Assembly (NCBI GenBank): GCA_902762655.1
Contig: CACWOZ010000006.1
Span: 62,001-126,000, forward strand
Length of the DNA: 64,000 nt
Direction: 5' to 3'
Source: an uncultured Bacteroidia bacterium
Lineage (GTDB): Bacteria; Bacteroidota; Bacteroidia; Bacteroidales; UBA932
This document shows, in pieces, positions 1-19,907 of this stretch. The translations under genes and the position numbers were made by a program. The first letter of the stretch is position 1, and every line of letters starts with the position of its first letter. The notes beneath the pieces were generated by a model that was not told the origin of the DNA, did no database searches, and worked only from the letters and a program-made list of their open reading frames with translations.

Positions 1-863
1 AATGCCTTGACCTGTGAAATAAAACGCGGAATGCAGATTATGCCGAGGATATAGCCTGCAGCCATGCCTATGCCGGGCCAGATGGTGTAACTCTCCGGAT
101 TCGAAAGTCCTTGTTCCTGGGCATAATCCAACACGGTCAGCAGAGCCAGATTCTCCACACCCACATACACGAAGAGCGCAAGGGCCCCGAGCAAGAGATG
201 AGGGAACTGCCAGAGCGAGGTCTTGCCCGCAGCATAGGGGCAATCCTCCTCGTTCTCCTCCCCCTCCGCCTTTATCTCCTCGAGCGGAGCGAAGAAAGTG
301 ATGATGCCGAGCAGGACCACGACCCCGATAATGATTAGCAGCGGCTTATCCAGATCCACCAGTCCCACGGCCTCAATCGGCTTTCGGGTAACTGCCGCGA
401 TAAACACGGAGGGCAGAGCCAGCGCAAGCGAATTGCAGATTCCCATGATGGAGATGCGCTGTGCGGCACTGTCGATGGGCCCAAGTATGGTCACGTAAGG
501 ATTTATGGCCGCCTGAAGCACGGTGTTGGCGGTTCCGCTGATAAAGCAGGCAAGCAGATAAAGAGCGAAACTCTCCATGCGAGCAGCCGGGATGAACAAA
601 GCGAACGCCAGCGCGAACATGAAGAAACTCAAGGACATAGTCCGCTTGTACCCTATCTTGTTTATGATGCTCGAAGCAGGGAAACTGAACACCAGGAACG
701 CGAGAAAAGTGGCCGCGATTACCAGATAGCTCTGGGCGGATGTCAGATTCAGATTGTTTTCGAGGAAAGGCACGAAATAACCGTTGATGCCGGTGGCAAA
801 TCCCACGGTGAAGAACATCATGCCAATGAATGCAAGGGGAACTATGTACTTGTTGCTGCTCAT
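1..863 (-). CDS. FucP/GluP-like MFS sugar permease (partial, 3' end outside window)
   Basis: About 287 codons are visible, starting at the ATG at 861-863, three bases after the kinase gene; the C-terminus lies beyond the left edge. The translation begins MSSNKYIVPLAFIGMMFF and is strongly hydrophobic. A segment reading NTVLQAAINPYVTILGP and a KIGYKR loop are typical of the FucP/GluP proton-sugar symporters of the major facilitator superfamily. An acidic linker (GEENEED) marks the central cytoplasmic loop. As the last visible gene of the murein operon, directly behind the amino-sugar kinase, it most likely carries free MurNAc or a GlcNAc-containing sugar across the inner membrane. Family assignment is firm; the substrate is inferred from context. 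Confidence 0.85.
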   Translation of the reverse strand, partial: MSSNKYIVPLAFIGMMFFTVGFATGINGYFVPFLENNLNLTSAQSYLVIAATFLAFLVFSFPASSIINKIGYKRTMSLSFFMFALAFALFIPAARMESFALYLLACFISGTANTVLQAAINPYVTILGPIDSAAQRISIMGICNSLALALPSVFIAAVTRKPIEAVGLVDLDKPLLIIIGVVVLLGIITFFAPLEEIKAEGEENEEDCPYAAGKTSLWQFPHLLLGALALFVYVGVENLALLTVLDYAQEQGLSNPESYTIWPGIGMAAGYILGIICIPRFISQVKA

Positions 864-866
864 GTG

Positions 867-1715
867 CTAATTGTTAAGATGATACTTGATGAGACCTTCC
901 ATCGGAGCCTTGAGGATGTTACCCATCTTCATGCCGAATTCCGCTACGACCTTTTCCAACAGTGGCCGGAAGTAGTATGCCACCGAGCCCACGGCATTGA
1001 AGGTATATTTTTGATAGTCAGGATAATGGGTAACTATCAACTTGAAAAACAGCCTGAATGCATCGGTCACCAGTTCCGGGAAGTAAGGATCGAAGTCAAG
1101 ATGCTCGTTGATGAACTTGGCATACTGCGCGCAGAAGCGGTTCGGGAAAGGTTTGGTATAGATAACGTCCAAGAGTTCGTCGTTATTCCGACCGAGTTCC
1201 TTGCCGACAAGTTCGTACACATTTGCCGGCATGTTGCGACGGATGTAGTCTGTGATCATGCGCTTGCCGAGGTTGCCGCCGGAGCCCTCGTCACCGAGGA
1301 TGAAACCGCAACTGTCCACGTTGAGGCCCTCGTTGCAGCCGTCATAGAGGCAGGAGTTCGCCCCGGTGCCAAGGATGGCTGCAAAGCCGGGCTTGGTCTG
1401 GAGCAGGGCACGGCACGATGCCAGGGTGTCCATTGCTATGAATACCTTTACCGCTTTTGTGAACACCTCACGGAGGGTCTTCTCCATGAAAGGATACTGG
1501 AGTTCGGTAACCCCGGCACCATAGAAGTAGATTTCATCTACCATATAGGGATCCAGTTCCGCAGGGAGATTCGCGCGGATGTCGGCAACAATCTGGCTGC
1601 CGGTAATATAGTTGGGGTTATAACCCTGGCTGAAGAAGCCAATGCGGGTCGAACCATCGCGGGAAACGCATCCCCACTCGGTCTTTGTAGCCCCGCTGTC
1701 TGCAATTAAAATCAT
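867..1715 (-). CDS. murK: BadF/BadG-type amino-sugar kinase, probable MurNAc kinase
   Basis: A 282-aa ASKHA-fold kinase of the BadF/BadG/BcrA/BcrD group. The N-terminal phosphate-1 motif DSGATKTEW (residues 6-14), the central GTGANS motif and the following LGDEGSGGNLGKRM loop are intact. Bacteroidetes relatives phosphorylate GlcNAc or MurNAc; Tannerella forsythia has a MurK of this type encoded with murT and murQ. Because murQ is in the same operon, the predicted reaction is MurNAc + ATP to MurNAc-6-phosphate in the cytoplasm. The start overlaps the upstream stop by 4 bp (ATGA at 1712-1715), so the two are translationally coupled. GlcNAc kinase activity remains possible; the family does not separate the substrates cleanly. 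Confidence 0.85.
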   Translation of the reverse strand: MILIADSGATKTEWGCVSRDGSTRIGFFSQGYNPNYITGSQIVADIRANLPAELDPYMVDEIYFYGAGVTELQYPFMEKTLREVFTKAVKVFIAMDTLASCRALLQTKPGFAAILGTGANSCLYDGCNEGLNVDSCGFILGDEGSGGNLGKRMITDYIRRNMPANVYELVGKELGRNNDELLDVIYTKPFPNRFCAQYAKFINEHLDFDPYFPELVTDAFRLFFKLIVTHYPDYQKYTFNAVGSVAYYFRPLLEKVVAEFGMKMGNILKAPMEGLIKYHLNN

Positions 1716-2584
1716 AATTCGTTCAAGTCCGGAAGTTCTCCGAGACCATAGCGGAAAAGCACTACGCCCTCGGCCTTGGTGGAATCAGTAAACATACGGC
1801 AATCCTGCAGGATGCGCTCGGCATTCATAGGCACGACATGCTCGGTATCGGTATCCTCGTATGTAGTAAGTCCGGCCCAGACCTTTGCGGGAGCGCCCTT
1901 GGTGGCGAAGTGATCCGCCACCATCTTTGCCCAGGGCCTGCCTCCCTTGCGGTAGCTGTCGCAGTGGAAGTAGATCATAGGCATGAGGATGTCGATGTAC
2001 TGCCCCATCTGGGCGGGATCCTGGCCGTAGTAATACTCGCTGTCCGGTTCGGGCATGAGGGCGGCAGAGAGGATGATCTTGGGATTGGCGGCCTTGGTCG
2101 CCTTGTTGATCTGCCTGCAGAACTCGGTCACGCAGCCGGTGGCGGTGATTTCCTCGGAAGGATTGTGCTTGTGGGCGGTGCCGCCGAATCGGATGTAGTC
2201 AAGATGGATGCCGTCTACGCCATAACCCACATATTTGACCGCACGCTCGATCACCTCGTCGAAGTACTCCTGCTTGTAGCGGTTGAGCGAATCATCCACG
2301 GGGTTGATCCACTTGCCGTCCTTGTAGAAGGCCTGGAACCAGATATGCACCTTCATCCCCTTGGACTGGGCCTCGTGGATGAATGCCAGGGTGGAGTCCA
2401 CGCCATGCTTTTCGAAGGCGACTTCGTGAAGGATGATGTTGTCTATGGCCTTGGCATGCAGGTCGTCGAGATCCACTTCGTTCATGAATTTCGACCAGAG
2501 CCAGATGCCGTTGGTGTTTTCGGGGGCATGCTTGCAGCTCACAATTGTTGCAGCAAGAAAAATAACAGCCAGAATCTTTTTCAT
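1712..2584 (-). CDS. GHL10 (DigH-like) glycoside hydrolase lipoprotein
   Basis: A 290-aa lipoprotein (signal MKKILAVIFLAATIVSC) consisting almost only of a GHL10/DUF187 TIM-barrel. Visible core motifs are VHIWFQAFYKDG, YGVDGIHLDYIRFGG and a late VVLFRYGLGELPDL, which is how this family ends. E. coli DigH (YddW), a member, cuts denuded peptidoglycan glycan strands, so a glycan-strand hydrolase fits this murein operon. It is a shorter paralogue of the protein at 7539-8885, which shares GVHLDYIRFGGTA and GVVLFRYQLGDFPD. Its stop overlaps the kinase start. The lipobox suggests outer-membrane anchoring. Bond specificity cannot be read from sequence. Confidence 0.8.
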   Translation of the reverse strand: MKKILAVIFLAATIVSCKHAPENTNGIWLWSKFMNEVDLDDLHAKAIDNIILHEVAFEKHGVDSTLAFIHEAQSKGMKVHIWFQAFYKDGKWINPVDDSLNRYKQEYFDEVIERAVKYVGYGVDGIHLDYIRFGGTAHKHNPSEEITATGCVTEFCRQINKATKAANPKIILSAALMPEPDSEYYYGQDPAQMGQYIDILMPMIYFHCDSYRKGGRPWAKMVADHFATKGAPAKVWAGLTTYEDTDTEHVVPMNAERILQDCRMFTDSTKAEGVVLFRYGLGELPDLNEL

Positions 2585-2607
2585 ACTATAAAACTACTAA
2601 CCAATTA

Positions 2608-3714
2608 TCAGAAAGGAAGCTCTTTATAGCGTCCGTTGAAGGTTTCCATACCTTTCCAGGCAGGATTTCCCACGGTCGCGGAATTATTGGAAGGATCGCA
2701 TATCCACCAACGGTGACCGTCCCAGAGCTCGGGAATCACATGACCTATAACACCAGAGCTGAAATAGCACTGCCCGTGCATGTAACGAGCGGGAATACCT
2801 GCGGCTCGACACATTGCAAGAGTGGCATGAGTAAGGTCGCAGCAATTGCCGCCCTTGGCTTTGATGGTGCCCACGGAACCCTTGGAGGTATTCATGTAGT
2901 TCTCCCACTCCCATTCATCTCGGGCATATTCAAATATCGCCTTGAGTTTCTGGAACTGGGTCGCGTTTTCGGGGAGTCCGGAAAGAGCAGCATCTTTTGC
3001 GGCGATGACTACAGGGTCGTCGATTGCACAATTGTTGACCTTGCGAAGATAGTCAGAGCCCCAGGTGCATACCTTTTCGGGCAATTGTGAATTATGCTTA
3101 TAGTAATAAAACACGCGGCAGAGGGCTGCACCATAATCGGTGGAGATAAAGTTGCCAATATATTTCACACCATCCTTGAAAGGAGTGTCATAGTTATAGG
3201 TAAAGGTGCTGTCGGCGCCGCGCGAAGGAACAGTGATCTTTCCGAAAGATACGTAATTGGGCATGGAGCCATTCTTTACACCATAGGCATAGGCCTTTTC
3301 GGCCGCCCATGAAAGAGCTTCCAGCGAGATGCTGTCCTGCTCGAAGGTATTGTTCTGCAAGTTTCCACCCCATGTCATGCGGACAGGAACGTCAACCTCT
3401 TCTTTCTCCCAGTTTTCAGGGTCCTCCTGAATCTGTTTGAGGAGCAGGCAAGCTGCAGCGATGTACTGGCCTTTACCATAGAGAATACCCTCGACATTCA
3501 CTGAAGCAGGAAGAAGATCCTTTTCAACAAAGGACTCGTAAGCTTTTGCAAGTTCTTCTACCATATATCCGTTGAAACGGGTAGCGGTGAATTCCTTGCT
3601 GACCTCCTCCTGGCCTTCAGAGTCTTCATTTTTATTGTCGTCATTGTTCTTGTTGCATGCGCAGGCAGCTGCAATCAGACTGCATGCCATAATGGAAAAC
3701 AGAAATTTTCTCAT
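2608..3714 (-). CDS. Transglutaminase-like cysteine peptidase lipoprotein with pseudomurein-binding-like repeats
   Basis: 368 aa from the ATG at 3712-3714, chosen because a lipoprotein signal (MRKFLFSIMACSLIAAAC) starts there; a 21-residue upstream extension in the same frame is not signal-like. Residues 45-100, 130-170 and 190-225 resemble pseudomurein-binding repeats (PMBR), with the NGxxPNYV core seen as KNGSMPNYVSFG and NSQLPEKV. The C-terminal half is a transglutaminase-like domain with a plausible triad C291 (GGNCCDLTHATL), H325 (IGHVIPELWDG) and D340 (WWICDPSNN). The same layout occurs in the pseudomurein endoisopeptidases PeiW and PeiP. Here it may cleave peptide stems or cross-links of cell-wall fragments at the cell surface. 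The PMBR call rests on pattern recognition; the catalytic domain is clearer. Confidence 0.72.
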   Translation of the reverse strand: MRKFLFSIMACSLIAAACACNKNNDDNKNEDSEGQEEVSKEFTATRFNGYMVEELAKAYESFVEKDLLPASVNVEGILYGKGQYIAAACLLLKQIQEDPENWEKEEVDVPVRMTWGGNLQNNTFEQDSISLEALSWAAEKAYAYGVKNGSMPNYVSFGKITVPSRGADSTFTYNYDTPFKDGVKYIGNFISTDYGAALCRVFYYYKHNSQLPEKVCTWGSDYLRKVNNCAIDDPVVIAAKDAALSGLPENATQFQKLKAIFEYARDEWEWENYMNTSKGSVGTIKAKGGNCCDLTHATLAMCRAAGIPARYMHGQCYFSSGVIGHVIPELWDGHRWWICDPSNNSATVGNPAWKGMETFNGRYKELPF

Positions 3715-3777
3715 AGCATTTAATGTTATAATTGGAACCGCGGGGGCGGTCAGGCCCCCACGGTCAAAAACAGGCAA

Positions 3778-6700
3778 TTACTTCACTCCGTAGAGATCGA
3801 AATCGAACTTCTGGCCCTTGAGAGCGCTGTAAACATTTGCATCTACATTATTGTCGAGCAAATATTTATAAATCCTCATCATAACGAGCATTTCGCGCAT
3901 AGGAGAGATGTATCCGACATAAGCACCGTTCTCACCATTGAGATTGAGGGTGCCGGAGGAGGTACCGAATTCCTGGAAGTTGCCAATCATGCCGAGAGGA
4001 CTGGTGTTGCCGTCGTTCTTGATAAGGCCGCGCACGATGTGCCATGCACCAACCTTGATTGCGAAGTTGACATCGACAGCGGTAACTTCCTTTCCACCGT
4101 CCTTGACGAGGTTTCCACCCTCATACCAAGGATGCTTGCCCCACTTGTTGTCGGGGAGTATAGCGGAGATGGGAGCCTCGGACAGAGCCATGGCATCCTT
4201 CAGGGTGTAAGCCTTGTTGCGGTCGGTCATGCCGGGGAGGAAGTCCTCTCCTTCGGCGGTGCACATGTTGAGCAGACCGCGGATAGCGATTTCCCATGCC
4301 TCGTTGGCCTTGATGTCCTTTCCGGGAACCTTCAGGACCCAAGGAGTGTACTTGGGATCGTACTGGTTGTTGCCGAAAGTATAATAATCGCTGTCAGGGT
4401 TGCCCTCGATGGGGATGAAATGAACATTCTCCCAAGCTCCATCCTTGCTCTTCTGGTTACGGACACCGTCTGCATCAACGTTGCCAACTGTGTTCTGCCA
4501 AACGTTGAGGCCCTTTACGAAAGCTCTTGCGAAATCCTTGAGCGAAGCGGTCTCGATTCCGAAGAGTTCGGAACGGATAACAACGTCTGCGCCAAGACCA
4601 TCAGCCTTGTCGAGCTTGTTGTCGAGCATGTACTTGAAGAAGTATGCATAGGTGATGAGAGCACGGCCCGCACTGAAGCAGCCACCGTAGTTGGTAATAG
4701 GATCACGAGGATAGCCGCAGAGGTTGGTGATGACCTTGTCGTGAGTGAACGCCCAGTTGACAGAGCGCTGTGCCCAGTTGTCAAGGATAACAGGATCAAC
4801 CTGTCCGTAAACTTCCTTGCCGTCAACCTTCTTGTAGAGATATCCGCCATTGCTGGTCTCAATCAGAGGGCTGCCGAATGCGAATCCATGGGAATCGGGA
4901 ACAGGAGAATCAAGGGTAACGGGAGTTACCTTGCCGAAGTTGCCGAGTCCGGCCTTTTCGGTCTCATTGCCGTCGAATCCACGGAGAAGCATGTAGCTGC
5001 GAAGACCAACCTCGAGCATGTCGGCGATGTTGTAAAGCTTGCTGCCAACCAGGATCGTGGTATTTGCAGGAACATAGTGTGCATTCTTTACGACATCCTT
5101 GTCGCCGGGTTCAGCGAGCTTGAATGCAGAAAGACGGTTTACATCTCCGATGCTGTTCTCCCAGATATTGACAATCTTGGAATAAGCCTCTGCAAATTCC
5201 CTGATGGTAGGCTTGGTTTCGGTAGCAGTCTCGATTCCGAAGAGTTCGGAACGGATGACAACATCCTCGCCAAGTTTGTCAGCATAGTCAAGGCCATTCT
5301 CAAGCATGTACTTGAAGAAGAATGCATAGGTGAGGAGTGCACGACCCGAGCTGAAGCAACCTCCATAGTTGGTGATAGGATCACGAGGATAGCCGCAGAG
5401 GTTAGTGATGACCTTGTCATGAGTGAACGCCCAGTTGAGGGAGCGCTGCGCCCAGTTGTCAAGGATAACAGGATCAACCTGTCCGTAAACTTCCTTGCCG
5501 TCAACCTTCTTGTAGAGATATCCGCCATTGCTGGTCTCGATCAGAGGGCTGCCAAACGCAAAGTCGTGAGCATCAGGAAGAATAGCATCCATGGAAACGG
5601 GGGTCACCTCAGGGAAGTTGCCCCATCCGGCCTTCTCGGTCTCGTTGCCATCCCATCCGCGGAGAAGCAGGTAGCTGCGGAGAGCGATCTCGAGCATGTC
5701 TGCAGTATTGTAGGTCTTGCCGCCAACGAGAATGGTAAAGTCATTGGGCACATAGTGCGCATCCTCAACGACATCCTTATCAGCATCGGTAGCAAGAGCC
5801 CAGTTGGAGAGACGGTTGATCTTTCCGACATGAGTAGCCCATTGGTCGATAACCTTGATGTATTCCTGAGCGAAGTCCCTGATGGTAGCTGTGTTGGGTT
5901 CGGTGTATTCGATCTGGCTTACCTCGATTTCGAGACCTTCGGTAACGTTGCCGCCCTTGACAATGACCTTGCCGTCGCGGGCCTCGCCGCTGTTCTGTGA
6001 TACAGAAACCTTGATAGTGATGTCACCAGCCTCGCCGGAAGCAGGGTCAACGGTAATCCAGTCAACGGTGGGAGTCGCTGTCCAAGCTTCCTTGGCAGTA
6101 AAGTTGGCTTCCTTCGTAGATTCCTTCCAGTCATAGTTGAGCTTCATGGTCTTGAGCTCGATGTCGGGCATGTCAACACCATAGAGATCATAGTCGAGAT
6201 GAACATCCTTGACTGCATCCCAAACATTTTCGGTAATGTTGTTCTTGAGGAGGTAATCGTAGAAGCGGATCATGATGAGGAAGGTACGCATTGCGGAGAT
6301 GATACCTTCGTACTCACCATAGTTGATAACGCTCTCTCCCTTGCCGAACTGCTGGAAGTTGCCGATGGCAGGAGTGTCGAACTGGGTGCAGCGGGTGAGG
6401 TACCAGCCAAGTTCATGGCAGAGGAACTCAACGGTGCAAGGATTCTTGTCCGAGAAGTTGATGATAGCGCCATCATTGGTGTTCTCATACCAAGGATATG
6501 CATTGAAACCGGTTACTGTAGCATATTCAGCAGGAGTAGGGATAGGCTCAGAGAGGCTCTTGCCATTGCCCATGGTATGAACAAAAGGATTGCGGGAAGG
6601 CTGCATGAGGCTGGAACCCTCGACAGTAACGAGGTCGAGGATACCCTGAGCCGCAACACTCCAGCATTCAGCTGCAGTGTATTCGCGGCCGTCAACAACA

Positions 6701-7491
6701 GGATGCCAGATGGGGAACTTGCCCTCATCATACATTTCGCCATCCTTGTAACCACCGGAGTACTCGATAGGAATGAAGTGTACATTCTGCCATGCAGTCT
6801 TGTTAGAGGTACAGTGCGAACCGTCTGCATCAACGGTACCTACGGTTTTCTCCCAGACGTCAAGATACTTGACAAGTTCGGTAGCGAATGCCTTAAGGGT
6901 AGCGGCAGCTCCCTTGTAATCTGCAGATACGCTCTCGGCAAGTTTGCCGTCAGCTTTGTATCCTGCGAGTGCGCGAGAAATGACGATAGTGGCGCGGTCG
7001 GTCGAGAAAGCGATTGCAGAACCGTTGCGGGTGAAGTTCGTCTGGTTAGGAACCTGAAGGTCAGCAACCATACGTGCAAGCATCCTGCTGGCAACGTTCA
7101 CAAGATCCTCGGTCTCTTCCCCGTTCTTGGGGCCGTTGGTCACCGCAATGGTTTCCTTGTCATAGCTATCCCTTTCGGGGTGAGCTGCAGGCTTGTAAGA
7201 AGGCACTGTGATGTCGCCCTTCTCGCCTTTGCTGATGTTTACCAGTGCCTGGCAGATGGCAAACTGGTACTCAGGAGCATTGAAGTCCTTGCTTCCGACC
7301 TTGAAAGAGTCGGTCAGGCCTTCTCCTTCTTCCCATGACTTGTAAGTGGAAGAAGCTGCATCTACGATTTCTGCAAGTGTCACCTTGGTTCCTGTGGTAT
7401 CACCTGGTACAGGTTCCTTGGTGTCCTTACAGCCGGTGAAGGTCAGTGCAAAAGCAGCGAAGCTCACCAGAAAAAAACGTAATTTTTTCAT
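3778..7491 (-). CDS. Giant modular surface lipoprotein with PMBR-like repeats and a BACON domain
   Basis: A 1237-aa lipoprotein (MKKLRFFLVSFAAFALTFTGC). Residues 37-190 resemble pseudomurein-binding repeats (YKADGKLAESV, VPNQTNF). Four longer modules follow: A about 197-440, B 536-755, C 760-982 and D 983-1237. All share an opening F-A-x(3)-V/Y-x(3)-W-x(4)-G-x-V and an HYVP/HFIP motif followed by a vGgk-Y-x-A-D core. A and D pair with each other (ending YDLYGV and FDLYGV); B and C are near-copies. A BACON beta-sandwich (about 448-530, TVDWITVDPASGEAGD) separates A from B. No catalytic motif is evident; FLCHELGWYL is not a metallopeptidase HExxH. It sits in the murein operon between the GHL10 and transglutaminase genes, so a wall- or glycan-binding scaffold is the simplest role. 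Confidence 0.7.
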   Translation of the reverse strand: MKKLRFFLVSFAAFALTFTGCKDTKEPVPGDTTGTKVTLAEIVDAASSTYKSWEEGEGLTDSFKVGSKDFNAPEYQFAICQALVNISKGEKGDITVPSYKPAAHPERDSYDKETIAVTNGPKNGEETEDLVNVASRMLARMVADLQVPNQTNFTRNGSAIAFSTDRATIVISRALAGYKADGKLAESVSADYKGAAATLKAFATELVKYLDVWEKTVGTVDADGSHCTSNKTAWQNVHFIPIEYSGGYKDGEMYDEGKFPIWHPVVDGREYTAAECWSVAAQGILDLVTVEGSSLMQPSRNPFVHTMGNGKSLSEPIPTPAEYATVTGFNAYPWYENTNDGAIINFSDKNPCTVEFLCHELGWYLTRCTQFDTPAIGNFQQFGKGESVINYGEYEGIISAMRTFLIMIRFYDYLLKNNITENVWDAVKDVHLDYDLYGVDMPDIELKTMKLNYDWKESTKEANFTAKEAWTATPTVDWITVDPASGEAGDITIKVSVSQNSGEARDGKVIVKGGNVTEGLEIEVSQIEYTEPNTATIRDFAQEYIKVIDQWATHVGKINRLSNWALATDADKDVVEDAHYVPNDFTILVGGKTYNTADMLEIALRSYLLLRGWDGNETEKAGWGNFPEVTPVSMDAILPDAHDFAFGSPLIETSNGGYLYKKVDGKEVYGQVDPVILDNWAQRSLNWAFTHDKVITNLCGYPRDPITNYGGCFSSGRALLTYAFFFKYMLENGLDYADKLGEDVVIRSELFGIETATETKPTIREFAEAYSKIVNIWENSIGDVNRLSAFKLAEPGDKDVVKNAHYVPANTTILVGSKLYNIADMLEVGLRSYMLLRGFDGNETEKAGLGNFGKVTPVTLDSPVPDSHGFAFGSPLIETSNGGYLYKKVDGKEVYGQVDPVILDNWAQRSVNWAFTHDKVITNLCGYPRDPITNYGGCFSAGRALITYAYFFKYMLDNKLDKADGLGADVVIRSELFGIETASLKDFARAFVKGLNVWQNTVGNVDADGVRNQKSKDGAWENVHFIPIEGNPDSDYYTFGNNQYDPKYTPWVLKVPGKDIKANEAWEIAIRGLLNMCTAEGEDFLPGMTDRNKAYTLKDAMALSEAPISAILPDNKWGKHPWYEGGNLVKDGGKEVTAVDVNFAIKVGAWHIVRGLIKNDGNTSPLGMIGNFQEFGTSSGTLNLNGENGAYVGYISPMREMLVMMRIYKYLLDNNVDANVYSALKGQKFDFDLYGVK
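4553..4875 (-). repeat. Internal direct repeat, copy in module C
   Basis: This 323-bp stretch of the giant lipoprotein gene matches 5231-5553 without a length change. It encodes the C-terminal half of module C (from NGGYLYKKVDGKEVYGQVDP through GCFSAGRALITYA). The central part, around the GQVDPVILDNWAQRS and NLCGYPRDPITNYGG peptides, is nearly identical at DNA level while the flanks have drifted. This fits tandem duplication of a 226-codon unit with later divergence or local gene conversion. Confidence 0.9.
5231..5553 (-). repeat. Internal direct repeat, copy in module B
   Basis: Second copy of the 323-bp repeat, offset 678 bp (226 codons) from the copy at 4553-4875 and in the same orientation and frame. 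The identical blocks would allow homologous recombination to lose or gain one module without breaking the frame. Confidence 0.9.
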
Positions 7492-7538
7492 AATGCTGTG
7501 TTTTGATTGGTTAATAGATAATATTTAGGTTTTTGGTT

Positions 7539-8885: not shown

Positions 8886-8891
8886 TTCACT

Positions 8892-9722: not shown

Positions 9723-9737
9723 AATCCTCAAAAATAG

Positions 9738-11588: not shown

Positions 11589-13381
11589 TTCTGGAATTCT
11601 TTTGTTACAACTTTGCCTATAGGCTGGCCCTTACGGAAACCGCGGGCCTTGATTACCGAGCCCCTGTCCACCATGAAGGGCCTGCCGTCGTAGACTGGAG
11701 ACTTCGCGGTGGGAGTGCTGCCGTCCAGGGTGTAACGGATGACAGCCGTGGGATCTTCGATTTCCAGGTTCATCGCCTTGGGGAATTCTATATTGCGGTC
11801 GTAGTCGAAAATCACATCGTAATATACCGGGCAGTACTGTATTCCTTTCCAGTCCAATGTAGCGAGGACCTTTGGCATACGCCTGCGGAAAGATTCCCAG
11901 TCCTTGTTTTCACGGGAAGTCCAGCCCACCTCGGCTGCAGCAACGTTGCGAGGGAAGGCCTGATATTCGGCTGTCTTGTTGTCGGGTACGTATTCCGTCC
12001 AGAGGCAGGTTTCGTAACCGACAATATACTTCTTGCTGAGGTCTGCGAGAGAATCTACTGCAGGATAGTAATTGTAAACTTTCTTCAAGGGCATGAAGAG
12101 GTTCTGGTCGACGCTGTCGGCCATGTCCTCCTGCTTGTTGTCGAGATAGCACCAGCGGTTGGGGGTAAGGATCACGCGGATTCCGCGCTTGATGCCCTTG
12201 ACTGCAGGAGCGTGCCCGCGGTAGGACATTGCGATAGGATCCTCCAGGGCGCCTCCGTCCAGGATTTCATCCCATCCGATGACGGTCTTGCCGTTCTTCC
12301 GGAGAAAGTCCCCCATCCTCTTTACGAAGAAGGTCTGGAGTTCCTCCTCGTTTTCGAGCCCGAGCACTGTCATAAGGTCCTGGCAGTACTTGCTCTCCTT
12401 GTATACGTCTTTGGGCGCCTCGTCCCCTCCTATATGATATATAGGTGATGGAAACAGCTCGAAGAGTTCGGTGAACACATCTTCCAGAAAACGGAAGGTG
12501 GTTGCGGTGGGAGCATAAAGGTTTTTCCAGATGCCCCACCTGGTCTCGACCTCGTAGTGGCGGTCGGGGAAGCAACTGAGTTCGGGGTAGGCGGCGATGG
12601 CGGCGGTGCTGTGCCCGGGAATCTCCACTTCGGGGATAACGGTCACGCAGCGCCTGCGGGCATATTCCACGACCTCGCGTATGTCATCCTTGGTGTAGAA
12701 TCCTCCGTGGGGGATACCGTTGCCAATGCCACTGTGCCAGGCAGTCTCCTTGCGCCAGGCTCCCACCTCGGTGAGCTTGGGATATTTGTCGATCTGGATG
12801 CGCCAGCCCTGGTCTTCGGTGAGATGCCAGTGGAACATATTCTGCTTGTACATCGACATCAGGTCGATGAACTTCATTATCTCTTCTTTTGGGAAGAAGA
12901 AACGGCCGCTGTCGAAGAGCAGCCCGCGATACCAGAATTCGGGTTCGTCGTCTATGGTGCAGCAGGGAGCAAGCAACTTTACAGGTTTCTTAATTGCCTG
13001 AGCGTAAATAACTTCCGGCAGAAGCTGCTTGAAGGTCTGAAGGCCGTAGAATGCTCCGTTCACTTCCGATGCCTCGATCAGTACTTCCGACGGGGTAACG
13101 GTGAGCCGATAGGCTTCCTTGCCGAAACCGGGGCGCTTGCGGAGCACAATCCTGGTCTTGCCGCCGTTCAGGGCGGAGACATGCTTCACCTGGTCCTTGA
13201 AATCGGCAGCGATCTCCTCGAAGGTGGCGTCTTCCACCACAAGGGCTGTATTCTTGTCGAGCCTGAAGAACCCTTCAGACACGGTTACACTCTTGGGAGT
13301 AGGGACTATATTTAGCCCGGATTCCGCGTAAGCGAGGACCCCCGGCAGCACAACCGCCACTATTAAAAACAATCTCTTCAT
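11585..13381 (-). CDS. GH20 beta-N-acetylhexosaminidase, secreted (copy 2)
   Basis: 598 aa with a classical signal peptide (MKRLFLIVAVVLPGVLAYA, no lipobox cysteine), so this copy is probably periplasmic while copy 1 is lipid-anchored. The GH20b domain, the barrel (FWYRGLLFDSGRFF, HWHLTEDQGWRIQIDKYP) and a C-terminal CHB_HEX_C domain (VIRYTLDGSTPTAKSPVYDG) are all present. Catalytic pair D320-E321 in HIGGDEAPKDVYK. The two GH20s are clearly paralogous but diverged, which suggests division of labour between surface and periplasm or between glycan lengths. Its start directly abuts the stop of the ceramidase-like gene (13382). Confidence 0.93.
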   Translation of the reverse strand: MKRLFLIVAVVLPGVLAYAESGLNIVPTPKSVTVSEGFFRLDKNTALVVEDATFEEIAADFKDQVKHVSALNGGKTRIVLRKRPGFGKEAYRLTVTPSEVLIEASEVNGAFYGLQTFKQLLPEVIYAQAIKKPVKLLAPCCTIDDEPEFWYRGLLFDSGRFFFPKEEIMKFIDLMSMYKQNMFHWHLTEDQGWRIQIDKYPKLTEVGAWRKETAWHSGIGNGIPHGGFYTKDDIREVVEYARRRCVTVIPEVEIPGHSTAAIAAYPELSCFPDRHYEVETRWGIWKNLYAPTATTFRFLEDVFTELFELFPSPIYHIGGDEAPKDVYKESKYCQDLMTVLGLENEEELQTFFVKRMGDFLRKNGKTVIGWDEILDGGALEDPIAMSYRGHAPAVKGIKRGIRVILTPNRWCYLDNKQEDMADSVDQNLFMPLKKVYNYYPAVDSLADLSKKYIVGYETCLWTEYVPDNKTAEYQAFPRNVAAAEVGWTSRENKDWESFRRRMPKVLATLDWKGIQYCPVYYDVIFDYDRNIEFPKAMNLEIEDPTAVIRYTLDGSTPTAKSPVYDGRPFMVDRGSVIKARGFRKGQPIGKVVTKEFQK

Positions 13382-14731
13382 TTATTCTGCTGCTATCGTT
13401 TCATTTATGGTCTTTATCACTCCTTCGCGGTAAACCGAAGGCATACGCTCGGAAAGCGGATACGGGGCCTTTATGTAGACATGCATCTGCTCCACTTCAT
13501 ATTCGTAGCCCTTGCGGACTTCGTATGCGCGTGCGGAGGGCAGATAGGAGTTCTGGCCGTTGGTGTAGCCGGCGAAGAAGACCGTCCTGTCGGGGAAGGC
13601 GGCGCGGGCTTCCATCTGATATTCGCAGAAAGGCTCGCCGTCGCTGAAGAAGAACACGACGCCGTCAAGATTGAGCGCGTGGAGATGGTATCTGAGTTTC
13701 GAAGGCACGGGACCTTCTTCGAAACGGCCGAGTATCTCTTCTTCCCAGCCGCGCACGTCATCCGCAAAACGAGGGAATACAGTCTTTGCCGCAGCGGCAA
13801 GGGAATCGGCATGGCGCCGGACGGCCTCGGGAGTGACGACATCTATCTGATAAGGCAGGTCGACGGTTTCGTTCACTATCCTGAGCAGGCCGCGGGACTT
13901 CACCTTTTCGAAAGGAATGCCCACAAGGGCGTCGGCCAGCTCCTTTCCGCACTTTTCGGCGTATGCGGCATCCTTCGGGCCCAAAGCCGGATCCATGTTT
14001 CCCGCGGCACCGGTAAGCTGGAACACTTCCCCGCCCCAGGCCTCGGAAAGATAACGGGCATTAACTCCGGGATAGTCCGAAGAAAGTAGATAACTTGAAG
14101 GCCCCATGCATACCGGATGGCATGCAAGATTCACTATTGAAACCACGGGCTTGCCCTTCTGGAGGAAGCGGGCGACATACACGTCATGATCGACTGGTCC
14201 GCCTTTTTCGCAGCGGTTGCCGTTGATGGCGGTGCGTCCCCTCCCGATTTCGAGGGTGAAGGGCTTTCCTTCCGCCTGGATGGTCTTTACTGCATTTTCG
14301 GTGACAATACCCACCATCCTGTCTTTCCACGCGCGGTTGGGGCCGCCGGGCACGTTGCACCAGCCTCCCGAACGGGGAGCGGAATGGGTGTGGATGTTGT
14401 GCATCAGGATGTTGTCCTTGGCGAGCCCGGACTTCTCCGCGATCATGGTACGGATAGTATCGGAGAGCGCGGGAGAGATTTCCATGAGGTCGTTGGAGAT
14501 GATGCAGACCTTCTGCACGCCGTCGCCGAGCACAAGGCAATGAGTATAAATGTGCTGATGGATTCCGTCGTGCAGGTCGTTTCTGGCTGCGAAGCCTGCG
14601 AGCATGGTATGCTCGTCTTCCGTAGTTGAAATATCTGCCGAGGAATAACTCATCTTCAGCCCTGCGCCTCGGCATCCGGAAAGAATGCCGAGGACTGCGA
14701 GAGCTGCAATCAAAGTATTTCTAATAGACAT
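13382..14731 (-). CDS. Neutral/alkaline ceramidase-like lipoprotein (putative amide hydrolase)
   Basis: A 449-aa lipoprotein (MSIRNTLIAALAVLGILSGC) related to the N-terminal zinc amidase domain of neutral/alkaline ceramidases. Candidate zinc ligands lie in MHNIHTHSAPRSGG and NLACHPVCMGP, and AAGNMDPALG corresponds to the family's GNxGDxxP-type stretch. Eukaryotic and bacterial ceramidases hydrolyse an amide bond; Bacteroidetes homologues inside glycan loci have no proven substrate. Here an N-acyl or amide bond of a murein fragment is an inference. The gene overlaps the susD stop by 11 bp (14721-14731), so it is translationally coupled to the import genes. Confidence 0.78.
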   Translation of the reverse strand: MSIRNTLIAALAVLGILSGCRGAGLKMSYSSADISTTEDEHTMLAGFAARNDLHDGIHQHIYTHCLVLGDGVQKVCIISNDLMEISPALSDTIRTMIAEKSGLAKDNILMHNIHTHSAPRSGGWCNVPGGPNRAWKDRMVGIVTENAVKTIQAEGKPFTLEIGRGRTAINGNRCEKGGPVDHDVYVARFLQKGKPVVSIVNLACHPVCMGPSSYLLSSDYPGVNARYLSEAWGGEVFQLTGAAGNMDPALGPKDAAYAEKCGKELADALVGIPFEKVKSRGLLRIVNETVDLPYQIDVVTPEAVRRHADSLAAAAKTVFPRFADDVRGWEEEILGRFEEGPVPSKLRYHLHALNLDGVVFFFSDGEPFCEYQMEARAAFPDRTVFFAGYTNGQNSYLPSARAYEVRKGYEYEVEQMHVYIKAPYPLSERMPSVYREGVIKTINETIAAE

Positions 14732-16745
14732 ATCCAGGGTTCTGCTCTATTACCTTCTTGGTCTTGTCGATTTCCGTTTGCGGTATAGGCATGAGGTAGT
14801 TAGGATAATCTGCAGGATTCTCTATACCAGGAGTATTGGTGCAGGTGAGATTTCCGGCCTCCGGATAGTTGTTGCGGCCGGAGTTGGGGAACCACTTCTG
14901 GGTAGGAGAGATGGTAAGGCAGGCCTCGCCGTAATCGACAGCATAGGTCTTGCCCTTCCATACATAGTTTACAAGATATGCCACATTGCGACCGTTGTTG
15001 CTGCTGATGTATGCATCACTTTCCTTTGTGTTGGTCCAGTAGTAGTTGCGCTCCTTGTTGACCAGATTGGCAGGCTGGACGCAACGGTAGATGGTATCGG
15101 TCTTGCTTCCCTTCTGCAGCAAGCAGGTACGCATGCCGGCAAAAGGCACGTTCTCATAAGTGGTGGCAATCTTCCAGCGCCTCGTGTCGAAGTAGCGGAA
15201 TGCCTCGAAAGCAAGTTCGATGCGGCGTTCATTGACAACCTCATCCCAAAGGGCTGCACCTGCATCCGTAATCGGAGGCATGCCGACGCGGGCACGCACC
15301 TTGGTGAGATATTCGCGGCAGACATCCTCCTTGCCGGTCATGTAAGCAGCTTCTGCAAGGTTCAGATACATTTCACCAAGACGGAACCAAGGATAAACCA
15401 CGTTGCCTATAAGAGACTCGGAGATATACCTGTCGGGCATGTACCACTTTGTAAGACCGCTGCCACCGGTATTGGTGATATGAATCTGGTCGCTGGCCTT
15501 CTTGGAGGTGCTGGGCTCGGGTTTGCCTTTGTCGAAATCGGCGAGCTCGGTGTTCTCGTAAAGGAGATAAAGCTGAAGTTCAGTCTCGTTGAGGCCACCG
15601 TCCTTGTCTGTCCACTTGTAGATCTTGGTCGGATAGATGATGCACTCTTCGAAACGGGGATCACGATTCTTGAAGGGACGCTTGGGGTCGTAACCGGAGC
15701 CTTCTTCGAAAATCTTCTTTCCGTTCTTCATCTCATAGTCAAGCCACATTGCCTGGGTAGGGTTGAAGCTTTCCCAGCCGCCGCCGCCGAAGTCCATGAG
15801 GGAATAGAGGAGCTGAGCCTTGTGAGGCTGGCCGCTGCTCTGCACGAAATACTTGCCCCAGATGATTTCAGGAGAATTCTCGTCGCGCCAGAATCCGTCG
15901 TATGTGTCGTCGAGGGTGTAAGCTCCGTCAACATCGGCACGGTCACAGATAGCTTTTGCAGCCTTGAACGCATCTTCCCATTTATCCTTGGAATAAGCGC
16001 CACGGAAAATACCGCCGTCGGGGAATGAAGGATCGTTGAACAGAGGAGAAGCTACGATAAGGGTAAGGCGGCTGCGGAGAGCGAGGACGCAATCCTTGTG
16101 AACACGTCCGAGTGAAGTTGCGTTCTTTTCGGGAAGAAGGTCATAAGCTTTGTCGAGATCTTCATTGATGAATGTCACGCAATCATCGAAATTGGCGCGG
16201 GTATTGGTAAATTCTGCACCGAGGTCATCGAAAGGTTTGTCCACGAGAACAACGCCGCCATAACGCTCGATGAGGTTGGTGTAAGCCCATGCACGGAGGA
16301 AGTAGGCTTCTCCGGTAAGGCGGTTCTTGCCCTCCTCGGTCATTGCGGAGCCCTTCTCCTCGACATATCTGAGGAAGTAATTGAGGCGATAGATATACTC
16401 GTACGCACGGTTCCATATATTAAGGAAGGTAGTACGGGTATTGTGTGCCGGACCGCCTTCGTCCTGAGGGATGATGGAACTCGGGGTCATGGAGCCGTCG
16501 GCGATATAACGGGTGGACGTACCGCCATAGCGGAAGAATCCTTCGTCGGAAATACAACCGATATTACCCTCGGTGAAAGGATCCGGCAGAACCGTATAGA
16601 TGGCATTGATATAACTCTCTGCAAGGGCGTCGCTGTTGAACACGGCCTCCTCGGAAAGCTTGTCAAGAGGTTTCTTGTCAAGGAAACCGTCATTGCATGC
16701 GGCAAGCATGGCCGCAGCAGCAAGTATATAGAGTATCTTTTTCAT
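14721..16745 (-). CDS. susD: SusD/RagB-family outer-membrane lipoprotein
   Basis: A 674-aa lipoprotein (MKKILYILAAAAMLAAC followed by NDGFLDKKPLDKLSEEAVF), the usual SusD opening. The tetratricopeptide-type helices and the late motif VVNERRIELAFEAFRYFDTRRW, then YPNYLMPIPQTEIDKTKKVIEQNPGY, are diagnostic. SusD forms the lid of the SusC channel and captures ligand at the cell surface. It lies 11 bp after susC. At 674 aa it is longer than many SusD proteins, and the extra length is spread over the middle of the protein. Confidence 0.95.
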   Translation of the reverse strand: MKKILYILAAAAMLAACNDGFLDKKPLDKLSEEAVFNSDALAESYINAIYTVLPDPFTEGNIGCISDEGFFRYGGTSTRYIADGSMTPSSIIPQDEGGPAHNTRTTFLNIWNRAYEYIYRLNYFLRYVEEKGSAMTEEGKNRLTGEAYFLRAWAYTNLIERYGGVVLVDKPFDDLGAEFTNTRANFDDCVTFINEDLDKAYDLLPEKNATSLGRVHKDCVLALRSRLTLIVASPLFNDPSFPDGGIFRGAYSKDKWEDAFKAAKAICDRADVDGAYTLDDTYDGFWRDENSPEIIWGKYFVQSSGQPHKAQLLYSLMDFGGGGWESFNPTQAMWLDYEMKNGKKIFEEGSGYDPKRPFKNRDPRFEECIIYPTKIYKWTDKDGGLNETELQLYLLYENTELADFDKGKPEPSTSKKASDQIHITNTGGSGLTKWYMPDRYISESLIGNVVYPWFRLGEMYLNLAEAAYMTGKEDVCREYLTKVRARVGMPPITDAGAALWDEVVNERRIELAFEAFRYFDTRRWKIATTYENVPFAGMRTCLLQKGSKTDTIYRCVQPANLVNKERNYYWTNTKESDAYISSNNGRNVAYLVNYVWKGKTYAVDYGEACLTISPTQKWFPNSGRNNYPEAGNLTCTNTPGIENPADYPNYLMPIPQTEIDKTKKVIEQNPGYVY

Positions 16746-16756
16746 ATCTGTGTCTG

Positions 16757-19700
16757 TTAGAAGGTTACTTTTACACCAAAGTTGTAAATCTTGACCTGTG
16801 GATAGGTCTGGTAGCCTTCGTCACTGGTCTCAGGGTCGATGGTCTTGAGCTCGGAGAAGGTGAGGAGGTTGTAACCAGCTGCATAGAGGCGGATGTTCTT
16901 GATGCCAACCTGATGTCCGAAAACACGGCCGGGGATGGAATAACCGATCTCCAGGTTCTTCAGACGCAGGAATGCAGCATTGCGATAGTAATAAGAGGAA
17001 CGATACACACCGCCATTGCCGATATTGGATGCGATACGCGGGTGATCGGTCGTGGTATTATTGAGGTTCCAAGCATTCTTGGCAGCATCATATTCGATAT
17101 TACCGGAAACGGGATCGGTCAGAGGTGCATAGTAGAAACGTGCACGGGCCTGGCCCTGAAGAAGGAGGGAAAGATCCCAGTTCTTCCATTGGAGGTCGCC
17201 GTTGATACCATATACTATCTGAGGAACAGCGGTAAGATCGGAACGGAGACGGTCCTGGGAATCTATGATTCCGTTGTGGTCAAGATCCTTGAAGTAGAAA
17301 TCGCCGAGACCTGCGCCGGCCATCTGGGGATGCTCGGCCATTTCTTCGAAGCTCCTGTTGATACCTTCTACCTGATAGATGAGGGATGCTCCCATGGGAT
17401 GGCCGGTACGGTTCATGTACTGATGTGCCTCATCGTAAGGAGTTTCGTCCATGAATTCGATGGTGTTCTTTGCATACATGATGTTGCCGGTCACATGATA
17501 ACGCATCTGGCCGATCTTGTTCTCATGGTTGATCTGGAACTCGACACCCTTGTTGGAAACTATACCGATGTTTTCGTCAGGAAGATTGGTGGTAAGGCCG
17601 GTGTAGTAAGGCACCGAAGCATTACGGGTGCAAAGGATGTTGGAACGGCGGGTGTGGAACACCTCGAATTCCCATCCGAAGAGGCCGTTGTAGAGGGATC
17701 CGTCGAGACCGAGGTTCCAGGTCTTGGCCACCTCCCAGGTAATGTTGGGGTTGGGAACTCCGTCGGGGATGATGTAGTTGACTTCCTTGCCGTCGTAGAG
17801 TGCACGGTAGGATGTGCTGGTAGAATACTTATAAGTAGAAAGGTACTGGAAAGCATCCACCTGGTCGTTACCCTGCTCACCATAGGAAGCACGCACTTTC
17901 AGGTTGGTGATCCAGGAAAAGTTGTCCTTGATGAAAGGCTCTTCGGAAATACGCCAGCCGATAGATGCACCGGGGAATCTGCCCCAACGCTTGTCGGAAG
18001 GGAAGTTCTCGGAGCCGTCGAAGCGGATGAGGGCCTGGAAGAGATACTTGCTCTTGTAGTCGTATCCGACACGGGCGAAGAAGGAACGGCGTGCAGTTTC
18101 GCTTGCATAACCGCCGATCTTATAGTAAGCTTTATCGGCATTTCCGGCAAAGAACTCGTCGAGGATGTCGGAATCGTACTTCTCGATAGCAGCGTTGAAG
18201 TAATCCCTACGATAGTTGCTCTGCTCCAAACCTGCGAGCGCGGTGACATGATGTCCGTCGAAATCGCGGTCGTAGTTGATATTGGCGTTGAGCGTGACGG
18301 TGTGGTAGTTGTTCTGGCTTTCGTTGAGGGTAGGTGTAGTAAACACGCCGCTGTCCCTTTCGCGATAAGTCTCCGTGATTTCATCATAGGAGTAGCAAGG
18401 CCAGTTCTTCGACCAGTTCTTGTGGAAGTTGTTGTGAACGTCGTATGCAAATACCGCATTTACGGACAAGCCCTTCGTGATGGCATGAAGGTCGTAGTTG
18501 CCGCGGAACGTGGTATTGATGGTGTTATAGGTTGTGTTGTCGTAACCGGTCAGGGACTGCACGAGGGCTGCAGGGTTGGCCCCGGAACGGAGATATCCGT
18601 TAGGATAATAAGGTGCGCTGGAAGCGTAACGCCTTGCAGTGATATAGAAGATACCGTAGCTGTCGGAAGGATAGGCGGAGTAATTCTTGTGCTGCTGGCG
18701 GACATTGAGGTCGAGACCGAGCTTGAAGTCGTCGGTAATCTGGATGTCGATGTTGGAGCGCACATTGTACTGGTTGTAGTTGGTAGCGGACTTGACATAG
18801 ATACCATCTTGATACTGCCCGTTGAACTGCACGAAGTAGCTCACCCTGCCGGCACCGCCCTGAAGGCTGACGCCGTACTTGTGCTGGTTGGAGCGGTCCT
18901 TGATGATGGCGTCGAACCAGTTGGTGTTAGGATAATTGATGAGGTCGTCACCGTCCTTATAGTGCTGGATCTGCTCCTGTGTATAGATGGGGGAAGCACC
19001 GGTAATGGCGCGGGCTGCATTGTAAGCCTCTGCGAAGGTAACAGCATCAGCCATCTTGAGAAGGCGGGTAGGCTGCTGCATACCATAGTCGTATGTGAAG
19101 GTAACGCTCGGCTTGCCGTCAGTGCGTCCGCGCTTGGTGGTCACGAGGATGACACCATTTGCAGAACGCGCACCGTAGATGGCTGCGGAGGCATCCTTCA
19201 GCACGTTCACGCTCTCGATTTCTTCGCCGGTCAGACGGGAGAATTCATCGCCACGTCCGGGCACGCCGTCGATGATGATCAGAGGACTGTTGTTGCCTAG
19301 GGTGGAACGGCCTCGGATATACATTACAGCATCGTCACGGCCAGGCTCACCGGAACGGTTGTTCACGATGACACCGGAGACACGGCCGGCAAGACCCTGG
19401 GAAAGGTTCACCGAAGAGTTCTTGACGAGTGCATCACCGGAGGTGGTGGTGACAGAACCGGTAAGCGTCACCTTGCGTTGGGTACCATATCCGATAGCAA
19501 CCGCCTCTTCGAGGACCATTGCATCGTCTTTGAGTACGAAGTCAATAGCCGTGCGGCCGTCAACTTTGGTAGTCTGCTCCTCGTAACCCATAAGGCTGGC
19601 AACGAGGGTAGCATTGGGCTGGACGCCGGAGATGGCATAACGTCCGGAGGCATCAGTCATTGCACCGTTGGATGTGCCCTGGACATAAACCATGGCCCCG

Positions 19701-19834
19701 ATAAGCGCCTCTCCCTTGGAATCGGAGACAACGCCCTGCACCTTGAGAGTGCGATTCTGGGCAGATGCGGAAAACACTTGCAGCGCCAGCAAAGAGCAGC
19801 TTGCAAGGAGCATCAAGAAAGGTTTAATTCTCAT
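16757..19834 (-). CDS. susC: SusC/RagA-family TonB-dependent outer-membrane channel
   Basis: 1025 aa from the ATG at 19832-19834 (MRIKPFLMLLASCSLLALQVFSASA signal). A 24-codon in-frame extension to 19906 is rejected because a consensus promoter (19877-19907) lies inside it. A carboxypeptidase-regulatory-like domain follows (about 30-110, VQGVVSDSKGEALIGAMVY), then the plug (GLAGRVSGVIV, IRGRSTLGNNSPLIIIDGVPG, VLKDASAAIYGARSANGVILVTT split by a few residues) and a beta-barrel ending in KIYNFGVKVTF. It imports ligand together with SusD using TonB energy. As first gene of the operon it takes the promoter directly. Confidence 0.96.
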   Translation of the reverse strand: MRIKPFLMLLASCSLLALQVFSASAQNRTLKVQGVVSDSKGEALIGAMVYVQGTSNGAMTDASGRYAISGVQPNATLVASLMGYEEQTTKVDGRTAIDFVLKDDAMVLEEAVAIGYGTQRKVTLTGSVTTTSGDALVKNSSVNLSQGLAGRVSGVIVNNRSGEPGRDDAVMYIRGRSTLGNNSPLIIIDGVPGRGDEFSRLTGEEIESVNVLKDASAAIYGARSANGVILVTTKRGRTDGKPSVTFTYDYGMQQPTRLLKMADAVTFAEAYNAARAITGASPIYTQEQIQHYKDGDDLINYPNTNWFDAIIKDRSNQHKYGVSLQGGAGRVSYFVQFNGQYQDGIYVKSATNYNQYNVRSNIDIQITDDFKLGLDLNVRQQHKNYSAYPSDSYGIFYITARRYASSAPYYPNGYLRSGANPAALVQSLTGYDNTTYNTINTTFRGNYDLHAITKGLSVNAVFAYDVHNNFHKNWSKNWPCYSYDEITETYRERDSGVFTTPTLNESQNNYHTVTLNANINYDRDFDGHHVTALAGLEQSNYRRDYFNAAIEKYDSDILDEFFAGNADKAYYKIGGYASETARRSFFARVGYDYKSKYLFQALIRFDGSENFPSDKRWGRFPGASIGWRISEEPFIKDNFSWITNLKVRASYGEQGNDQVDAFQYLSTYKYSTSTSYRALYDGKEVNYIIPDGVPNPNITWEVAKTWNLGLDGSLYNGLFGWEFEVFHTRRSNILCTRNASVPYYTGLTTNLPDENIGIVSNKGVEFQINHENKIGQMRYHVTGNIMYAKNTIEFMDETPYDEAHQYMNRTGHPMGASLIYQVEGINRSFEEMAEHPQMAGAGLGDFYFKDLDHNGIIDSQDRLRSDLTAVPQIVYGINGDLQWKNWDLSLLLQGQARARFYYAPLTDPVSGNIEYDAAKNAWNLNNTTTDHPRIASNIGNGGVYRSSYYYRNAAFLRLKNLEIGYSIPGRVFGHQVGIKNIRLYAAGYNLLTFSELKTIDPETSDEGYQTYPQVKIYNFGVKVTF

Positions 19835-19876: not shown

Positions 19877-19907
19877 CAAATTTACATAAATTATTTCGTT
19901 CCGCAAA
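19877..19907 (-). promoter_or_regulatory. Promoter of the susC-led murein operon
   Basis: Read on the minus strand: TTTG (19904-19907), 19 bp, TAAATTTG (19877-19884), an exact match to the Bacteroidetes consensus TTTG-N19-TAnnTTTG. Transcription would start near 19870, giving a leader of about 36 nt before the ATG at 19834. Confidence 0.85.

Follow-up and report, generated by a model that had tools for sequence, protein, structure and literature searches.

Which polymer feeds a Bacteroidales operon that joins a SusC/SusD import pair and surface hydrolases to relatives of the cytoplasmic enzymes MurQ and MurK? The question is raised by a run of genes at the start of the window analysed here, a stretch of 64,000 nucleotides (C6:62001-126000) of a draft genome of 2.18 Mb in 36 contigs. 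The operon continues into a second stretch, L003, which carries its far end, and in full comprises 15 genes over about 25.8 kb. Sequence comparisons and predicted structures, from which all functional assignments below are drawn, suggest a polysaccharide utilisation locus (PUL)-type operon of a Cryptobacteroides-like member of the Bacteroidales, devoted to a cell-wall polymer. The polymer in question is most likely methanogen pseudomurein, either by itself or together with murein, a reading to which we assign a probability of about 0.5. Instead of the bacterial wall, or in addition to it, the bacterium may thus feed on that of rumen methanogens.

A first-pass annotation had described a complete twelve-gene operon. 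Twelve co-oriented minus-strand genes are indeed found in 1-19834, but the twelfth passes the window edge, and three more genes lie beyond it. From the susC end, promoter and genes are as follows.

19877-19907, minus strand: Bacteroidetes-type promoter motif TTTG-N19-TAnnTTTG, exact match, 42 bp upstream of the susC start
16757-19834, minus strand: SusC/RagA TonB-linked outer-membrane transporter (TIGR04056, 877.9 bits, cut-off 368)
14721-16745, minus strand: SusD-family lipoprotein (PF07980, 160 bits)
13382-14731, minus strand: ceramidase-like lipoprotein, putative amidase (PF04734, 40.4 bits, cut-off 32.1, residues 30-151 only)
11585-13381, minus strand: GH20 beta-N-acetylhexosaminidase a (PF00728, 354.5 bits)
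9738-11588, minus strand: GH20 beta-N-acetylhexosaminidase b (PF00728, 407.2 bits)
8892-9731, minus strand: MurQ-family protein of a derived clade, here called MurQ2 (NF003915, 289.8 bits, cut-off 168)
7539-8885, minus strand: larger GHL10/DUF4015-type protein with a lamin-tail-like domain (LTD and DUF4015 both under cut-off)
3778-7491, minus strand: 1,237-aa lipoprotein with BACON domain (39 bits) and modules apparently related to pseudomurein-binding repeats
2608-3714, minus strand: PeiP-like cysteine peptidase of transglutaminase fold, preceded by putative repeats of the pseudomurein-binding type (Transglut_core, 61.6 bits)
1712-2584, minus strand: smaller DUF4015/GHL10-type glycosidase (PF13200, 33.6 bits, cut-off 27)
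867-1715, minus strand: MurK/NagK-type sugar kinase with altered sugar pocket (solved kinases of this type matched at 5e-59 to 5e-52)
1-863, minus strand, on into L003:16673-17863: NagP/GluP-like major facilitator superfamily (MFS) permease (profile match)
L003:11021-16704: C45 hydrolase, then GltS-like symporter, then M20+C1 peptidase fusion (Pfam/NCBIfam)

Pfam and NCBIfam back the earlier assignment of SusC, SusD, the two GH20 enzymes and the ceramidase-like protein. Two GHL10 glycosidases had also been called; the smaller passes PF13200, but the larger is weak here (DUF4015 E 0.0074, under cut-off), and its homologue in genome G081 passes both LTD and DUF4015. The largest gene, 3778-7491, was missing from that list. 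The GltS-like symporter scores 58 bits against the gltS model, the cut-off of which is 311. Gaps between the twelve genes are, in order, 11, -11, 0, -4, 6, 6, 47, 63, 23, -4 and 3 bp (the peptidase starting at ATG 3714), in agreement with the reported range of -11 to +63 bp. The promoter motif, which we take to be the Bacteroidetes consensus, has 5 matches in the window versus 0.41 expected. The one upstream of susC is single, the other four lie outside the operon, and none is found inside it or in L003, where the rest of the operon lies. Counts of sigma-70-like and terminator-like sites are near or under chance expectation. Beyond the last operon gene, 325 bp separate it from the next open reading frame listed on that strand (L003).

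PULs are recognised by adjacent susC and susD genes and co-oriented glycan-active enzymes, and both features are found here. We retain the view of a PUL-type operon in which import across the outer membrane and hydrolases at the surface are united with a cytoplasmic step of the MurQ/MurK families, and of a substrate of cell-wall type. As other SusCD-type PULs of Bacteroidetes, the operon features the SusC/SusD pair, hydrolases, an inner-membrane carrier, a nearby regulator and one promoter motif; it differs from the usual ones in hosting peptidases, amidase-like enzymes, cell-wall-type repeats and the MurQ/kinase pair. The substrate had been given as peptidoglycan. MurQ and the GHL10-type glycosidases are compatible with murein, but the pseudomurein of archaea is indicated by the peptidase and by the 1,237-aa protein.

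The product of 2608-3714 was first described as a transglutaminase-like peptidase. The Transglut_core match bears this out, but the protein is much nearer to a lysin-like protein of a methanogen virus than to transglutaminase-type proteins of its own genus. In 50,697 phage records its sole significant match is Methanobacterium virus Drs3 (two records, one virus), annotated as "pseudomurein-binding repeat protein"; the two match at 39.6% over the C-terminal 147 aa (E 1e-23), and their last four residues agree. Other matches in these records (vir075, vir080, an Acinetobacter phage and unnamed phages, E 0.02-0.9) are insignificant and were left unused. A profile built from 42 operon peptidases gives Drs3 140.6 bits, whereas nine further transglutaminase-type proteins from the genus score 18.9-45.7, and the reverse profile search gives 89.9 bits versus at most 31.6. 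Scans of viral contigs with Drs3 and with the peptidase alignment yielded zero relatives.

The N-terminal part of the peptidase resembles, by profile comparison only, the Drs3 repeat domain (hhalign probability 93.8; at most 0.8 for eight control families). The pseudomurein-binding repeat (PMBR) model of Pfam, with a cut-off of 24.9, scores 21.3 bits when the protein is scanned and 25.5 when the genome is. None of 14 control genomes has a PMBR over cut-off; in the genus PMBR is found in 4 of 151 genomes at E 0.001, over cut-off in 2, and all four matches fall within this peptidase. Cysteine, histidine and aspartate of the catalytic triad are retained, in a transglutaminase-fold domain as in pseudomurein endoisopeptidases. 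The AlphaFold2 model (pLDDT 68.7) has PeiP as top Foldseek match (E 4.6e-7, TM-score 0.25-0.28). The PeiP chains are the only two fold matches in the PDB with E <0.001; 3isr follows at 2.9e-3, and PeiR ranks 12 (E 0.15). PeiP, PeiW, PeiR and the lysin-like protein of Drs3 share with the operon peptidase a Cys-His-Asp transglutaminase fold and probably also the repeats that precede it. Unlike them, the operon peptidase is encoded in a bacterial PUL, carries a lipoprotein-type signal, is not viral and has no C71 match. Transglutaminase-type domains and pseudomurein-binding-type repeats are also combined in methanogen surface proteins, according to an excerpt of PMC11532034.

A search of 295 genomes of the order at E 1e-15 found the peptidase in the source genome only; a 35% relative is encoded by G892, from another genus of the family, and one of 45% by Candidatus Cryptobacteroides intestinipullorum. 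Two metagenome-assembled genomes of uncultured Bacteroidales contain the gene at 99-100% identity. Peptidase matches in G046, G068 and G038 carry one internal stop, which we take, from their open frames of 361-373 aa, to precede the true start.

The 1,237-aa protein is linked to the same repeats. Its first module matches the peptidase repeat domain with hhalign probability 98.9 and the Drs3 repeat domain with 82.1, and later modules match the peptidase repeat domain at 93, 93, 95 and 31. In the model of residues 30-445 (pLDDT 75.3) the sole Foldseek match below 0.001 is PeiP (E 8.5e-4), and ranks 2-4 are occupied by PeiR, PeiP and PeiR (E 0.23-0.48). The first third of the protein matches pseudomurein-binding repeats, to which it is probably related. 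Phage records contain no significant match for this protein or for the smaller glycosidase. In PHROGs the best hit had E 0.028. In G046 (L026:7552-9819) a 755-aa product combines one copy of the smaller glycosidase with sequence resembling the 1,237-aa protein; such a fusion would fit a substrate-binding role for the latter.

C1-type peptidases act on L-peptides. To judge from homology, the cell would be anchored on the polymer by the multi-module lipoprotein together with the peptidase's repeat domain, and the PeiP-like enzyme would cleave isopeptide links in it; pseudomurein endoisopeptidases cut Ala-epsilon-Lys in pseudomurein. To judge from their families, the ceramidase-like, C45 and M20 enzymes may release amino acids from acyl-peptides, and the C1-type peptidase may trim L-peptides. 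GHL10-type enzymes and GH20s, recognised by family, would cut the glycan and free N-acetylglucosamine (GlcNAc). Oligomers would enter through SusCD, amino sugar and glutamate possibly through the MFS and GltS-like carriers, and kinase and MurQ2, the pockets of which differ from those of enzymes acting on N-acetylmuramic acid (MurNAc), may channel a sugar into GlcNAc-6-P. Because pseudomurein contains L-amino acids only, and GlcNAc or N-acetylgalactosamine (PMC4592898, in the portion available), the C1 peptidase, the GltS-like carrier and the GH20 enzymes all fit this polymer.

The main alternative, possible but less likely, is a PUL for murein, as first proposed. The surface system would strip bacterial peptidoglycan, MurNAc or muramyl peptides would be phosphorylated, MurQ2 would yield GlcNAc-6-P and lactate, and the pseudomurein-type modules would have been recruited for this polymer. 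DigH acts on murein and is presumably a GHL10 enzyme, the type of the operon glycosidases, the match of which is to DUF4015. The same holds for Cwp19, a murein lytic transglycosylase of family GHL10 in the part of PMC6016235 available. Pfam at E 0.001 detects in the 15 operon genes no NlpC/P60, M23, amidase, lysozyme-type, SLT or NamZ family, and murein would be handled without canonical hydrolases, for which GHL10-type or uncharacterised proteins could substitute. The PeiP-like peptidase and its repeats also speak against murein.

The cytoplasmic pair bears on murein in both directions. MurQ2 belongs, as first annotated, to the MurQ family and passes NF003915, but a tree of 104 sequences places it in a derived clade with 36 members (FastTree local support 0.976). 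Short hits, stop-containing hits and duplicates had been removed before MurQ and kinases were counted and the tree was built. E83 and E114, which we take to be the catalytic glutamates of E. coli MurQ, are kept in 36/36 clade members and in 68/68 others, which favours murein. The changed residues tell against it: G73, N86 and L110 are fixed in 36/36 (others: S in 67/68, P in 66/68, V in 61/68), N105 is found in 35/36 versus A in 67/68 others, and V107 in 34/36 versus R in 56/68. Positions 73, 86, 105 and 107 are probably near the active site; a literature search on MurQ active-site residues yielded nothing, so their roles rest on conservation. One of 41 MurQs (L130), first classed as canonical, is of MurQ2 type by the tree. 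MurQ2 is also under the cut-off of PRK12570, and scores 237.8 bits against TIGR00274 (cut-off 302). The latter failure was considered as a sign of a new substrate and dropped, since the other MurQ of the genome (279.5 bits) fails too. This second MurQ is of canonical type (C1), and the genome also has a second kinase, 31% identical (C2). Their presence weakens a murein function for the operon copies, and plain peptidoglycan recycling was set aside on these grounds, the operon MurQ being in another clade.

The kinase was described as of MurK type, and its nearest solved relatives are 1zxo and 1zbs, then MurK-type entries, a point for murein. Pfam does not match it, and its sole NCBIfam match, NagK, is far under cut-off. 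It differs at positions involved in MurNAc recognition: all 36 operon kinases have M94, D133, S134 and C135 instead of the T94 and S133-P134-L135 of Tannerella forsythia MurK. Their N-acetyl pocket has N34 and Y35. Y35, M94, D133 and S134 are common to seven kinases of more distant loci. In the passages of PMC10465942 consulted these positions are tied to MurNAc recognition in the T. forsythia enzyme, and bulky charged residues at 133-135 are expected to clash with MurNAc. D133, an acid near the lactyl group, would make MurNAc less likely as a substrate. On the other side, T. forsythia K1058 has arginine at 133 and still phosphorylates MurNAc (same excerpt of PMC10465942). Because residues 134 and 135 are small and K1058 works with Arg133, the operon kinase may yet accept MurNAc, which counts in favour of murein and against pseudomurein. 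Given a kinase that differs from T. forsythia MurK and a MurQ in a derived clade, MurNAc is only a putative substrate.

The inner-membrane sugar permease first annotated is indeed a permease, but of NagP/GluP-like MFS type, unlike the sodium-symporter-type MurT. The murTKQ operon of T. forsythia, as outlined in parts of PMC5790795 and PMC10465942, similarly unites a MurK-family kinase and a MurQ-family protein. The present operon differs from it in having an MFS permease in place of MurT, altered kinase and MurQ residues, and SusCD, hydrolases and peptidases in addition.

A PUL for some other GlcNAc-containing glycan is unlikely. This could be chitin oligomers, host N-glycan or an exopolysaccharide decorated with peptides or acyl groups, and MurQ2 would then have a different sugar-phosphate function. 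The MFS permease is nearest to NagP and the kinase has NagK as its sole NCBIfam match, both far under cut-off, and the two GH20s would suit such a glycan. So would the G389 locus, which has MurQ2, kinase, MFS and ceramidase-like protein and no match to the operon GH20s in the stretch read. Such a reading would leave unexplained the PeiP-like peptidase with its repeats, the other repeat protein, the peptidases and the glutamate-type carrier.

Within the pseudomurein reading, a more specific proposal is that the MurQ family has been turned to an archaeal glycan, in a bacterium feeding on archaeal walls whose operon dismantles pseudomurein; we consider it unlikely. Like MurNAc, a uronic-acid-(1,3)-GlcNAc disaccharide has a carboxylated substituent at O3 of its GlcNAc. 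On this proposal the kinase would add phosphate to O6 of the same GlcNAc, and MurQ2, on chemical grounds only, might take off the 3-O-linked sugar by the beta-elimination that it would perform on MurNAc-6-P, to give GlcNAc-6-P.

The operon recurs as a unit. All 15 genes are found together in G068, G038 and G081, the order being altered in the last, and in G044 MurQ and kinase genes lie beside the locus on the opposite strand. Among 101 genomes of the genus, 17 have some peptidase match, strong in 9 (E <1e-40), and 63 have some MurQ match, of operon type in 9 (at least 68% identity). Eight genomes are common to the two sets of nine; the other two are interrupted by contig ends. A scan of named genomes yielded 41 loci, many cut by flank or contig end, in which were seen the repeat protein (38), GHL10L (35), kinase (35), MFS (34), MurQ (30), GltS (23), the M20+C1 fusion (20), SusD (11) and SusC (6). 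Two such loci, L097 and L113, lie close together on one contig of a goat omasum genome.

Several observations weigh against pseudomurein. The PMBR model hits only 3 of the 9 genomes with a strong peptidase, and therefore misses most homologues; none of 8 homologous proteins checked is matched. The model has no match in the 1,237-aa protein and its homologues examined, and the later modules of this protein lack a Drs3-repeat match (probability 0.3-9.8). PF12386 (peptidase C71) has no match in the peptidase at E up to 10. TM-scores are low for the models of both proteins (0.13-0.34). The PeiP fold match supports a likeness to pseudomurein endoisopeptidases and is no proof of it, because the nearest solved relative by sequence profile is 3isr, a bacterial transglutaminase-type protein, and not PeiP. 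PDB searches with peptidase profiles did not reach PeiP or PeiW, and in the single-sequence search the designed protein 8pjv ranked just over 3isr. Drs3 itself is nearest to 3isr (1.9e-5), followed by PeiP (0.0028) and PeiW (0.1). To our knowledge MurQ has no role on pseudomurein; its known substrate, MurNAc-6-P, is missing from this polymer, and no route for N-acetyltalosaminuronic acid was seen. Pseudomurein-binding domains also bind lysozyme-treated bacterial cells, as stated in an extract of PMC3124540.

The most telling objection comes from sister loci, found in five genomes of the same family (G815, G833, G848, G917, G787) and one of another family (G389). All encode MurQ2, kinase and ceramidase-like protein; SusCD adjoins in all but G787, five of the six (G389 being the exception) have GH20, and an MFS gene was noted in G833, G917, G787 and G389. 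In the stretches read, neither the repeat protein nor the peptidase is matched in any of the six. The MurQ2 core is thus wider spread than the pseudomurein-type modules, and this provides the strongest case for murein or some third polymer. Habitat speaks for pseudomurein to a limited degree: by title, 14 of the 41 loci are from ruminants (two being one contig), 13 carry RUG codes, presumably rumen genomes, 1 is from horse faeces, 1 from poultry and 12 name no host, and the ruminant link is suggestive only because a background rate for the genus is lacking.

Should pseudomurein be the substrate, gut bacteria would feed on methanogen walls, and the operon would be a source of binding modules and of enzymes that lyse methanogens, both new and relevant to methane control. 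Pseudomurein withstands lysozyme and further hydrolases of bacteria (PMC2989375, partial text), and the degraders named in the sections of the cited literature available are viral or methanogen proteins. Among the titles and abstract starts listed by searches of the open-access literature, none dealt with a PUL of bacteria directed at murein or pseudomurein. Were murein the substrate instead, the operon would still be an unusually full peptidoglycan PUL.

Other sequences lie around these loci. A DeoR-family (AgaR-like) regulator is encoded near the operon, at 21426-22190 on the plus strand. Homologues are found near the operon in G068, G038, G051, G044 and G081, divergence from susC not being constant, and also in G896; in G892 the homologue is at the opposite end of the locus. 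A 471-aa BPL_N-like protein (window 19999-21414) is encoded between operon and DeoR gene; it has a homologue in G081, and none was seen in the G068 stretch. MFS and C45 genes lie about 0.4 kb apart, and the spacer contains 2.5 copies of a 51-bp tandem repeat (L003:16298-16427); in G023 and G046 the two genes overlap by a few bases. A G+C-rich hairpin-like sequence is located between repeat protein and peptidase (window 3742-3759), and a similar one at the G038 junction. Past the far end of the operon, L003:3945-8789 encodes a GHL10 protein of 671 aa and a protein resembling GH2 exo-glucosaminidases. Among the sister loci, that of G815 has in addition a GH18+GHL10 protein as well as an AAT+C1 fusion. 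Close to the G833 locus lies an S13 carboxypeptidase, left uncounted because gene calls there were by open reading frame length only. The G389 locus (L149:4736-16663) is a small PUL, in which MurQ2, ceramidase-like protein, kinase and MFS are accompanied by a DegT-type aminotransferase with an apparent twin-arginine signal.

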